Shown one piece after another: positions 5,378 through 26,659 of a DNA stretch of 26,659 nt (positions are counted from its first letter, which is position 1; each line of letters opens with the position of its first letter). A program made the translations under genes and the position numbers. This DNA is from a virus, in IMG/VR virus record IMGVR_UViG_3300037189_009721, positions 1 to 26,659 of that record. One strand, given 5' to 3'. The notes beneath the pieces are model-generated. The model did no database searches. It saw only the letters and a list, made by a program, of their open reading frames with translations, and was not told the origin of the DNA.

Positions 5378-6115
5378 ATGGAAGAAGTAGAGAATATTGT
5401 TGATACTGAAATCACTAATCCTGAAGTAAAAGAGCAAGAAACTGCTCCTGATGACGATTTGCAAGCACCTGTGTTCAATAGAATTCAAGTTGCCGATGTC
5501 GTAAAAAGGGAAAAACAAAAAGCTTTTGAAAAAGGGAGATTAGCAGCTATGCAAGAATTACAAGCTCAGCAACAGCAACAACAAGCAGCCCCACAACAGG
5601 CTCCAAGCTTAGGTGGAATGGCGCAATTGTCACAAGCTGACATTGAGCGAATGATTCAAGAGCAAGCGACACGTGCGACACAAGAGCATATTCAAGGCCA
5701 ACTTGCTGAATTAAAACAGCAACAAATGGTGAATAGCTTTGTGCAAAAAATGCAGGTGGCAGAACAACAATATCCTGGACTCGAACAAGAACTCAATCAG
5801 CTCAATTATAATGACCCCAGAATCCATTCATTCATCGGAATGGTCAATGACATGGAAAACACTGGCGACATTATGAAAGAGGTTCTTGATAATCCGCACA
5901 AGCTTTCACAAATCTTGTCTGATATTCAAGACCAGCCATATCTAGCTCAGAAAAACTTGCAAAAGCTATCTGCAAGTATCAAGCAAAATATGTCTGCAAA
6001 AGCTGAAGAAGCTCAAGCTCGTGACCCCTACTCTCAACTAAAACCTTCACCTACGGCTGGAATGGACAATGGCTCTATGTCGGTGAGTGATTTTAGAAAA
6101 ATGTTTAAAGGCTAA
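5378..6115 (+). CDS. Capsid scaffolding protein (P22 gp8-like role)
   Basis: A scaffolding protein directs coat assembly into procapsids and then leaves. This 245-aa protein lies directly before the coat gene, the standard position. It is predicted mostly helical and charged: an acidic N-terminus (residues 1-35), a very glutamine-rich segment (about 60-75), and a long coiled-coil region with QQQ runs in the middle. A basic C-terminal tail ends SVSDFRKMFKG; in P22 the basic helix-turn-helix at the C-terminus binds coat, and this end fits that role. P22 gp8 is longer (303 aa). The call rests on position and composition more than on sequence motifs. Confidence 0.85.
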   Translation: MEEVENIVDTEITNPEVKEQETAPDDDLQAPVFNRIQVADVVKREKQKAFEKGRLAAMQELQAQQQQQQAAPQQAPSLGGMAQLSQADIERMIQEQATRATQEHIQGQLAELKQQQMVNSFVQKMQVAEQQYPGLEQELNQLNYNDPRIHSFIGMVNDMENTGDIMKEVLDNPHKLSQILSDIQDQPYLAQKNLQKLSASIKQNMSAKAEEAQARDPYSQLKPSPTAGMDNGSMSVSDFRKMFKG

Positions 6116-23843: not shown

Positions 23844-24248
23844 TTACCAGGGGATATCATCATCCAATAAAGGCCCTGATGATTTTACATTACCACTATT
23901 TTTATTTGTTTGTACAGCTTCTTCTTGTGGTGTGTTATTTAATATTTTAAATTCAGAAGCCGTAATGCTGGAACTAATTTTTTCAACGCCTGATTCATCT
24001 TTATATTTGTTTTGGTTAATTTTGCCCTCGACATAAACAATATCGCCTTTTTTAGCATATTTAGCCATAATTTCTGCCAATTTATTAAAGCCACAGACAT
24101 TGTGCCAGATAGTTTTTTCTTGTTTTTCACCATTTTTATCTTTCCATTTTTCATTCGTTGCAACAGAAAGTTTGGTGTATTGGATGCCATTATTATTTTT
24201 ACTTTCAATAAAACCGATACGCCCTAAAATAATTACTTTATTTATCAT
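23844..24248 (-). CDS. ssb: Single-stranded DNA-binding protein
   Basis: An OB-fold SSB of 134 aa, shorter than cellular SSBs (about 170-180 aa in enterics). The N-terminus MINKVIILGRIGFIESK, then the YTKLSVATNEKWKD and TIWHNVCGFNKLAEIMAKYA strands, and GDIVYVEGKI are the standard fold. The C-terminus is a short linker ending LLDDDIPW, the acidic tip that recruits partner proteins. It is the last gene of the leftward recombination operon, and its ATG lies inside the 55-aa gene upstream. It would protect single strands made by the RecE-like exonuclease. Confidence 0.95.
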   Translation of the reverse strand: MINKVIILGRIGFIESKNNNGIQYTKLSVATNEKWKDKNGEKQEKTIWHNVCGFNKLAEIMAKYAKKGDIVYVEGKINQNKYKDESGVEKISSSITASEFKILNNTPQEEAVQTNKNSGNVKSSGPLLDDDIPW

Positions 24249-24420: not shown

Positions 24421-25401
24421 TTAGTTAGATTTGAGTTTATTAAGTTGATAGATAAGTATTTTGGCTTTGGTTTCAGTAAGCTCTTCAAGACAACTAACTT
24501 CTTGTTTGCTTAACATAGATGTGATTTGTTCTTGCGATGTGCCTAATTCTAACAATAATGATTCAATTTGTTTTAACTGCTCAAGTGTTACTGATGGATG
24601 CTCAAAGGGCTCATCTTGCACAGTTGGCGTGAACAATTCTTCCATTTCGTTTTTGGATTCAACTGGCTCATGCTCGAGAAAACCGATATTCATGTCTTCT
24701 GAAAGAGAAGCTTTTATATCTTGTATACCTGCTTCTTGAAATTCATCAAGCATTGCTGTTTTTTGCATTTCAGGGCTAGCTGGCAACCATTTAAACAATC
24801 TTCTTACAACAGTTTTTTTAGCCATTTCTTCAAAATGTGTTACCCAGGGCCCTTGATCTTTTGATTTGGAAGAACTTCTAATTTGATTAATTTCATCTAA
24901 ACTCATAACTTCAAACTGATGACCACCATCTTTAAGAATAGCGACTGCATAAACGGCTATTAAATTGCCTTTGTTATTCATTGCAGGCTTATGTTCAAGT
25001 TTCTCATGTAATCCAAATTCAAAATTAAAAAAATCATTTTCATATACAGCTCTAGCGACCAACGAAATAATTTTTCCAGAGCGTCTAGCTAAATCAATAA
25101 AGCCCCTATAACCAGGCATAAACTGGCATTCCATTGAATTGGTTTTAAAATTGTAAAATGGAATTAAATAACACTGCCCTAAAACGCCTGGCTCTAAACC
25201 TAATTGCGCTGCTTGCATAATTGAAGCGATAAATGTCGTTGGTTCGCATTGTTGTAATTTTGGGGTTTGGCGTAAACAAGTAAGAGCAATTCTAGCTAAA
25301 CGTGATGGAGACAAATGTTTTGGCAAACACATTGCCATTTGCGGCTCCATTTTCTTTAATAAACTTTGGATTGTATTTTGATTTGTCATTGCGTTACTCA
25401 T
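24421..25401 (-). CDS. recT: RecT-type single-strand annealing protein
   Basis: RecT anneals complementary strands made by its partner exonuclease. The start is set at the ATG at 25401, preceded by GGAG with 9 nt spacing (326 aa); the frame is open 24 bases further. The conserved core spans residues about 10-215, with SPSRLARIALTCLRQTPKLQ, FIASIMQAAQLGLEPGVLGQ, CYLIPFYNFKT, CQFMPGYRGFIDLARRSGKI and GPWVTHFEEMAKKTVVRRLF. A C-terminal extension of about 100 residues is acidic and helical, longer than that of E. coli RecT (269 aa in total). It lies 5 nt after the exonuclease gene, as expected for an Exo-RecT pair. Confidence 0.95.
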   Translation of the reverse strand: MSNAMTNQNTIQSLLKKMEPQMAMCLPKHLSPSRLARIALTCLRQTPKLQQCEPTTFIASIMQAAQLGLEPGVLGQCYLIPFYNFKTNSMECQFMPGYRGFIDLARRSGKIISLVARAVYENDFFNFEFGLHEKLEHKPAMNNKGNLIAVYAVAILKDGGHQFEVMSLDEINQIRSSSKSKDQGPWVTHFEEMAKKTVVRRLFKWLPASPEMQKTAMLDEFQEAGIQDIKASLSEDMNIGFLEHEPVESKNEMEELFTPTVQDEPFEHPSVTLEQLKQIESLLLELGTSQEQITSMLSKQEVSCLEELTETKAKILIYQLNKLKSN

Positions 25402-25406
25402 TCTAA

Positions 25407-26195
25407 TTACTCCGTTTTTAACCAAGCAGGTATTGAAAGTGTTTGTATTCCATAATCGGGGAATTCGTTTTTTTGTATATTTTTATTAAGCTCAACCATA
25501 AGCGTGTCAAATTCATTCGCGCCAAACTCTAGGGCTTCATCGTCAAGCTTATAGATGCCGATAGCATAAGGAGCTTCCTTTTCTACAGCAACAAAGATAA
25601 AGTTTTTAATGGGCTTATTTAAGCTCTCTAAGGCGCGTTTAATCATACCTGCTTGCAGATAGTAGCCATAGTTGTATGCGCTAGATTGAAAGCTTCTGAA
25701 TGAGGCGTCAGCAGATGTTTTTAAATCGATAACAATATCACCAAGCCAAGCATCAGGTCGTACTTTGCATTGCAAGCCAGTCAATTCATGTCGAAAAAAG
25801 ATAGAATTTTCGACACGATAGCCTTGTTGTAGGTATTGCTTAAACTCATGATTGTTAACAGCGTCTGCCATTTTGCTGGCTTCGGTAAAATGGTTTGCTT
25901 CTACGATATGTTTGCCTTCGCTGGCAATCATAAATTCTGCGTGCTCAGCTTTGCCTTCTTTAGTGCGTCGGTCAAAGCCTGGATTAACAATGTATCTATC
26001 ATTAAAGAAATGTGGCTCAAGCACTAATGTATGGACTAATTCACCGATAATTAGTGATGGCGTTTCTTTGAGTGATTGTTTGTGTTTGAAATGCATTGGG
26101 GATTTTTTAAAGCGCATTAAATCGCTTCGTGAGATACCTTCTGAGCTGTGATATTGCTCATTGGTAATTGCATGTATACCGTTTTCAAATTTCAT
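25407..26195 (-). CDS. RecE-like (exonuclease VIII-type) PD-(D/E)xK exonuclease
   Basis: A 5'-3' double-strand exonuclease that makes substrate for RecT. The start is set at the ATG at 26195, after GGAGTT with normal spacing; the frame is open to 26258, but that part overlaps the promoter and operator. The 262 aa match the catalytic C-terminal domain of RecE: ITNEQYHSSEGISRSDLMRF at the N-terminus, GELVHTLVLEP (H55), E129, D148 in CKVRPDAW, and D157-x-K159 in VIDLKTSADAS. The long N-terminal half of E. coli RecE is absent, as is common in phages. It is the first gene of the leftward operon. Confidence 0.9.
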   Translation of the reverse strand: MKFENGIHAITNEQYHSSEGISRSDLMRFKKSPMHFKHKQSLKETPSLIIGELVHTLVLEPHFFNDRYIVNPGFDRRTKEGKAEHAEFMIASEGKHIVEANHFTEASKMADAVNNHEFKQYLQQGYRVENSIFFRHELTGLQCKVRPDAWLGDIVIDLKTSADASFRSFQSSAYNYGYYLQAGMIKRALESLNKPIKNFIFVAVEKEAPYAIGIYKLDDEALEFGANEFDTLMVELNKNIQKNEFPDYGIQTLSIPAWLKTE

Positions 26196-26229
26196 TTTAT
26201 GAACTCCGCTACTCGTTATTAACAAGACA

Positions 26230-26258
26230 ATTATACTTAATATATTTTTATTCGTCAA
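26230..26258 (-). promoter_or_regulatory. Leftward early promoter for the recombination operon
   Basis: On the minus strand TTGACG (26258-26253) and a perfect TATAAT (26235-26230) are exactly 17 bp apart. The predicted transcript begins near 26223 and has a leader of about 28 nt with GGAG before the exonuclease ATG. The -35 lies in the left arm of the operator. Confidence 0.8.
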
Positions 26259-26272
26259 ACTATATTTGACGA
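26252..26272. promoter_or_regulatory. Shared 21-bp operator of the divergent early promoters
   Basis: TCGTCAAA (26252-26259) and TTTGACGA (26265-26272) are a perfect inverted repeat with a 5-bp spacer CTATA. Each arm contains the -35 (TTGACG) of one of the two divergent promoters. A dimeric repressor bound here would block both; the Cro-like product of the next gene is the obvious candidate. Confidence 0.8.
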
Positions 26273-26294
26273 TGAATATTTATTATAATATAGT
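26266..26294 (+). promoter_or_regulatory. Rightward early promoter for the Cro-like gene
   Basis: TTGACG (26266-26271) and TATAGT (26289-26294) are 17 bp apart, each 5/6. Transcription would begin near 26301, right at the Shine-Dalgarno AAGGAGGT (26301-26308), leaving a leader of only about 13 nt before the ATG at 26314. Confidence 0.8.
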
Positions 26295-26313
26295 TAGCTA
26301 AAGGAGGTACAAA

Positions 26314-26565
26314 ATGACTATAGATGAAGTTTTAAATCATTTCAAGAGTGAGTATAGGGTTTGTCAATTGTTAGGAATAGGAAGGCAGAATTTTACTTAT
26401 TGGAAAAAGAAAGGTTACATTACTTACATGCAGCAGCTTGAGCTTGAAAAGTTATCGGAAGGAGAGCTTAAAGCAAATATTCAAGACTTATACGACAGAT
26501 ATTCAAATCATAGCGTGAAAACAAAACAGGGTTTAAACAAACGTAAGGAAATAGCAAATGATTAA
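26314..26565 (+). CDS. Cro-like DNA-binding repressor, 83 aa
   Basis: A small helix-turn-helix protein of the Cro/YdaS type. The N-terminal 50 residues show the compact Cro pattern: MTIDEVLNHFKSEYRVCQLL then GIGRQNFTYWKKKGYITYMQ, where RVCQLLGIGRQNFTYWKKKG is the helix-turn-helix with W30 in the recognition helix and YITYMQQLELEKLS following. The C-terminal tail is basic and probably disordered. It has the best ribosome site in the window and a promoter overlapped by the operator, so autoregulation is likely. It overlaps the next gene by 8 nt. A CI-like antagonist is not in the window. Confidence 0.85.
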   Translation: MTIDEVLNHFKSEYRVCQLLGIGRQNFTYWKKKGYITYMQQLELEKLSEGELKANIQDLYDRYSNHSVKTKQGLNKRKEIAND

Positions 26566-26659
26566 GGCGTTAAGTTGGGCATTGAGGCAGCATCCTGATA
26601 AAGTCTCAAGCATTGAAAAGCTTGTTTTAATTGGAATGGCGGATATGTGCGATGAAGAC
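26558..26659 (+). CDS. Replication-initiator-like protein, N-terminus (3' truncated by window)
   Basis: Only 34 codons are visible: MIKALSWALRQHPDKVSSIE, then KLVLIGMADMCDED. The LSWAL...KLVLIGMAD pattern is the start of the N-terminal winged-helix domain found in phage replication O-like and DnaT-like proteins that bind origins. The ATG overlaps the Cro-like stop, and AAGGAA (26545-26550) gives the ribosome site. Position directly after Cro agrees with a lambda-type cro-O arrangement. The gene's function is inferred from this short piece. Confidence 0.6.
   Translation, partial: MIKALSWALRQHPDKVSSIEKLVLIGMADMCDED

Follow-up and report, generated by a model that had tools for sequence, protein, structure and literature searches.

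The stretch of DNA analysed here (the window) is a 26,659-bp virus record from IMG/VR, with matches to terminase large subunit, portal, head and ejection proteins; the isolate relatives of its portal protein are distant (about 20% identical) and come mostly from Vibrio phages. Near the right end of the window, two groups of genes point away from each other. On the minus strand, the first gene of the leftward early operon (25407-26195) is a family match to exonuclease VIII, or RecE-like nuclease (DUF3799), and the same operon encodes the RecT single-strand annealing protein (24421-25425) and the single-strand DNA-binding protein SSB (23844-24248). On the plus strand lies the gene of an 83-aa helix-turn-helix protein that resembles Cro (26314-26565), overlapped by a second rightward gene that is cut by the end of the window (26558-26659). 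The orthologue of this second gene in the related contig L122 has a weak match to a replication-initiation protein, and the rightward operon of the relatives, as seen in G001, encodes the Cro-like protein, then replication-initiation-type proteins and thymidine kinase. The preliminary description had recombination and replication genes diverging from one element, and this is what is found, the replication genes being those of the relative G001.

Two divergent promoters on one inverted repeat

The intergenic region holds a 21-bp inverted repeat, TCGTCAAA-CTATA-TTTGACGA (26252-26272, in full TCGTCAAACTATATTTGACGA; hereafter O1), the proposed operator common to both early promoters. It forms eight perfect pairs, six of which are the -35 hexamers themselves: a promoter scan places TTGACG of the leftward promoter in the left arm (26253-26258, minus strand) and TTGACG of the rightward promoter in the right arm (26266-26271, plus strand). 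The respective -10 elements, each across a 17-bp spacer, are TATAAT at 26230-26235 on the minus strand and TATAGT at 26289-26294 on the plus strand (TATTAT in L003). The leftward promoter scores 11/12 and is the best promoter-like match in the 6.7 kb scanned; the rightward one scores 10/12. One palindrome overlaps core elements of both promoters, exactly in the arrangement first described, and a single dimer bound to the dyad would, by this geometry, lie over both -35s.

The predicted leftward start is at about 26223 and the rightward one at about 26300-26302. A start about 7 nt past the rightward -10 would fall at the Shine-Dalgarno sequence of the Cro-like gene, AAAGGAGGT, assigned by its position (26300-26308, plus strand), in agreement with the earlier suggestion that this transcript begins at its own Shine-Dalgarno; since the latter sits at the expected start, the rightward leader would be about 13 nt long. 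Reading of the repeat as an RNA structure was dropped, because it lies upstream of both predicted starts and hence outside their transcripts.

Just past the predicted leftward start there is a distinct leader element, TTAATAACGAGTAGCGGAG on the minus strand (26204-26222). In relatives this element, TTAAYAACGAGTARCGGAG, recurs before two or three leftward genes, directly past the predicted leftward starts (L003:10285; L124:10729 and 11075), including the second leftward promoter discussed below; perhaps it is a ribosome-binding or translational control element.

Chance expectation of the repeat

When the 118-bp intergenic region was shuffled 200 times, no shuffle reached the base-composition-weighted score of the O1 repeat (p = 0.005). 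None of 5000 intergenic shuffles, and 1 of 60 shuffles of the whole window, contained two divergent promoters with -35s this close, at least 5/6 matches being required in each hexamer. In DNA this rich in AT, the symmetry of O1 is weak evidence when taken alone, unlike the double-promoter geometry. Because the hexamers account for six of the eight arm pairs, symmetry alone cannot decide between an operator and two -35s. The repeat might accordingly be no operator at all, simply the back-to-back -35s of strong divergent promoters, with regulation, if any, coming from mutual exclusion of polymerases; such a view would account for most of the arm pairs, it fits with arm-plus-loop symmetry arising in 8% of intergenic shuffles (401 of 5000, for an 8-bp-arm repeat as such), and the predicted starts are about 79 bp apart. 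The evidence that bears on it further comes from the relatives.

Within the window, the pattern TCGTCAA-N7-TTGACGA has one exact match, which is O1; no further exact copies of the palindrome were found there, the next-best match having 2 mismatches and lying within a structural gene (17135). The half-site TCGTCAAA occurs in the window at chance level (22 observed versus 22.7).

Conservation of the element in close relatives

Six related contigs (L002-L007) encode a close Cro-like protein, and O1 is present with both promoters in all of them; in IMG/VR, six contigs match the exact double-promoter pattern, every one a relative. The arms, the 7-bp gap and the promoters are kept in these contigs while surrounding bases vary, the outer seven bases of each arm are invariant, and the leftward -10 is conserved across all close relatives. 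L003 and L007, for example, differ over much of the other intergenic sequence but have TCGTCAA-N7-TTGACGA, the -10s and the leader in common. The Cro-like proteins of L004 and L005 are identical letter for letter, and the centre of their O1 reads ACTATAT in one and GCTCTAT in the other, with unchanged outer arms; therefore it is the outer arms, not the centre, that go with the protein. In L012, with a 60% identical Cro-like protein, one arm base is changed (TTGTCAA-N7-TTGACGA). The arms also share the non-consensus sixth base G and a flanking T/A pair, both kept in the six relatives, which argues against the promoters alone having shaped the repeat.

A second copy in the relatives

A matrix trained on O1 sites only ranks the same place second in all six records that hold the region (G001, G002, G004, G005, G015 and the record of L022). 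This place, O2, is a half-degenerate second copy that reads YGTCAAGCTTTATTTTACTAA or nearly so. It overlaps the -35 of a further leftward early promoter, TTGAC(G/A)-16-TATAAT, which drives a conserved protein of 102-108 aa with no function assigned. The right arm of O2, TTTTAC, is invariant in all six, though that position has no need of a rightward -35, and the bases immediately outside this arm differ in L004 and L007. A mirrored half kept where no promoter calls for one is at odds with the reading of the repeat as promoters only. In G001, where O2 falls in the fragment L122:4860-4935, its score of 15.4 lies within chance when taken alone (maximum 16.7 in 100 shuffles), so that the weight of O2 comes from its place and conservation, the six occurrences being orthologous and not independent.

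The search for copies beyond the window, proposed in the preliminary description, has thus turned up a second copy in every relative covering the region, and the description of the operator as single holds for the window, where there is one copy, and not for the six relatives that reach further. Given O2 and the three palindrome copies of L017 (below), O1 is probably one of a small set of sites, as judged from sequence.

A different repeat, GTCAAA-N5-TTTGAC, lies in coding sequence at the start of an early leftward gene (L122:7244-7266, L125:7381, L024:5578, L025:4696, L022:2317), its arms being kept while the intervening codons change; it is broken in L124. As a third operator this candidate (L122:7247) is doubtful, since it lies within a gene, whose codons can account for it, and L124 does not preserve it.

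More distant lineages

The clearest picture outside the close relatives is in L017, whose Cro-like protein is 38% identical. Its locus has three copies of TATGTCAA-N4-TTGACATA (303-322, 1255-1274 and 5919-5938), with at most one mismatch each. Every copy contains the -35 of a TTGACA-17 promoter; one belongs to exo/cro, and the other two precede genes of 76 and 164 aa. No other plus-strand TTGACA promoters were found in the 12.9-kb locus, and the chance of each mirrored arm is 0.0003 to 0.006. Repetition of a full palindrome at one-directional promoters is hard to reconcile with a repeat made of two back-to-back -35s; together with the conserved sixth base and the mirrored half of O2, it makes the explanation without an operator unlikely.

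Elsewhere the pattern is more varied. The exo/cro region of L042, in which the -35 is not TTGACA, has two copies of TATAGCAA-N4-TTGCTATA, with 0 and 2 mismatches; in L015 (ATTGACGTCAAT) and L142 (AACGATTGATTTATGTCAAACGTT) the -35s of the divergent promoters overlap inside one symmetric element. No significant palindrome was found in the exo/cro regions of L018, L033, L034, L037, L039, L107 and L108, so that a palindrome is not significant family-wide, none reaching significance in most of the distant lineages. As the spacing varies by lineage (N7, N4, overlapping), no common operator rule is established. Among 50,697 records, no isolated phage matched this Cro-like protein, and no comparable divergent promoter region was seen in S-H1 and Mcat13, the two exonuclease relatives examined.

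The Cro-like protein and other candidate ligands

The AlphaFold model of the 83-aa protein has five helices and is confident over residues 1-55. Its top Foldseek matches are N15 Cro (free and operator-bound), Xfaso Cro and P22 Cro, with probability 1.00 and E-values of 0.016-0.12, the chain being so short; the TM-scores (target) are 0.76-0.79 to 2HIN/6ON0 and 0.77 to 1RZS. Profile search of PDB likewise finds P22 Cro (1RZS, E = 8.8e-6) and N15 Cro (2HIN, E = 0.0033). The match to the Pfam P22_Cro family is at 16.8 bits, below the gathering score of 30.2, and there is an extra C-terminal helix beyond the N15/P22 Cro fold. By the modelled structure, and not by the Pfam threshold, the protein belongs to the N15/P22 Cro fold group.

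O1 may instead serve some other protein, either a 75-aa HTH_3 regulator, found above the cut-off in G001, G002, G004 and G015, or a regulator of the host. No match to the former was found in the record of L017, where the three-copy operator is at its clearest, and it is the Cro-like gene that always adjoins the element; host operators were considered in the light of general background. We regard another ligand as quite unlikely, and the Cro-like protein as the better candidate. The HTH_3 regulator itself (L122:5327-5554) is encoded just upstream of the small terminase gene and is a candidate late regulator. Another protein of G001 (L122:6502-6948, minus strand) joins a DUF3310 domain to the C-terminal domain of RNA polymerase alpha subunit (Pfam RNA_pol_A_CTD, 4.6e-8, over the cut-off), and could touch early-promoter control.

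Absence of a CI-type repressor and the proposed mechanism

In lambda, the Cro-type helix-turn-helix protein acts on the early promoters PL (recombination) and PR (replication), with three sites each at OR and OL and with cI between PL and PR. In the locus studied here, by contrast, the counterparts of PL and PR point away from each other out of one shared site, the intergenic region has one copy of the element instead of several tandem operators, and cI was not found. On its divergent side, cro adjoins the exonuclease gene.

The most informative relative is G001, of 34,434 bp. Identical 126-bp stretches (100%) are found at its two ends (the start of L123 and the end of L122), and the window maps across these ends; for these reasons G001 appears complete, at about 34.3 kb, despite its record being classed as linear. 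Searches for integrase and resolvase (PF00589, PF00239) gave no match in G000, G001, G002, G005 and G006, and those for the S24 peptidase and Phage_CI_repr families (PF00717, PF07022) none in the window or in G001, an absence of recognised families that does not prove a virulent life style, as divergent repressors could escape detection. A lambda-like switch would require a temperate phage with CI, also using O1, in the missing part of the genome, and the window record is indeed a 26.7-kb fragment that ends just past the Cro-like gene; given the results for G001 and the position of the exonuclease gene where cI would be expected, we consider it very improbable. The contrast with the three-site operators of lambda, drawn in the preliminary description, is therefore not supported: an apparently complete relative in which neither integrase nor resolvase nor a CI-type repressor can be detected makes lambda a poor model, and, no CI having been found, three sites would have no choice between CI and Cro to encode.

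We propose, with a probability of roughly 0.7, that O1 is the operator for the adjacent Cro-like protein, a Cro without CI that would shut the early promoters through their -35s. Binding and repression, as well as their timing, the identity of the ligand and the transcription starts, are what we infer. Early in infection, host polymerase of the sigma-70 type would use the two strong promoters with -35s in the arms of O1. The Cro-like protein would accumulate and then bind the dyad as a dimer, blocking sigma region 4 at both -35s simultaneously, so that the leftward recombination genes and its own rightward operon, with the replication genes, would be turned down together. Through O2, the Cro-like protein may also reduce expression of another leftward early operon. 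Since no CI is detected, this would be an early-to-late shut-off loop and not a lysis/lysogeny switch.

Relation to known systems

One palindrome controlling two opposite promoters is familiar from tetR/tetA and the bio operon; these involve other protein families and another promoter geometry, whereas the arms of O1 are formed by the -35s. Cro is commonly understood as one half of the lysis/lysogeny switch. A Cro-fold protein that appears to work with its own operator, in phages where no partner repressor or integrase can be found, would show a lone role of Cro, that of timing the end of early transcription.

A Cro that acts on a single site is not new in itself. In the telomere phages N15, PY54 and phiKO2, OR3 lies between cI/cB and cro and serves to repress the repressor gene only, not cro, and the Cro proteins of PY54 and phiKO2 bind one 16-bp palindrome only (PMC4488713, PMC4997575). 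These phages have the same Cro fold as the protein described here; the site here, in contrast, is between the exonuclease gene and cro, holds both -35s and would repress both promoters, with no CI found. The cro mRNA of PY54 is leaderless (PMC4488713, PMC4997575), comparable to the very short leader predicted in our case. What differs here is that the site is common to the recombination and replication promoters, that there is probably a second copy, and that CI is not detectable. Among openly licensed papers, we found nothing relevant on a lone Cro in lytic phages or on back-to-back promoters sharing one site.

More tentatively, with somewhat less than even odds in our judgement, Cro without CI might be a general early shut-off device of RecE/RecT phages that have no detectable lysogeny genes: a palindrome built of -35s, shared by divergent promoters and present again at one or two other early promoters, its sequence, spacing and orientation differing from lineage to lineage, since these would be specific to the lineage (outward with N7, outward with N4, or overlapping inward, as in L015 and L142). 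The compact site, two -35s in one dyad, offers a simple setting in which to test how two operons are shut off together, and its natural variants, with the same protein at different centres and different palindromes across lineages, allow testing of recognition rules.

The likeness to P22 Cro extends from the profile match to 1RZS to gene order, the Cro-like gene being the first gene of the rightward early operon; the protein here differs from P22 Cro in scoring below the Pfam gathering threshold, in its additional helix, and in having no repressor gene adjoining. Two P22-Cro-like genes stand in tandem in L134 (IMGVR_UViG_3300036806_000187, about 1811-2204).
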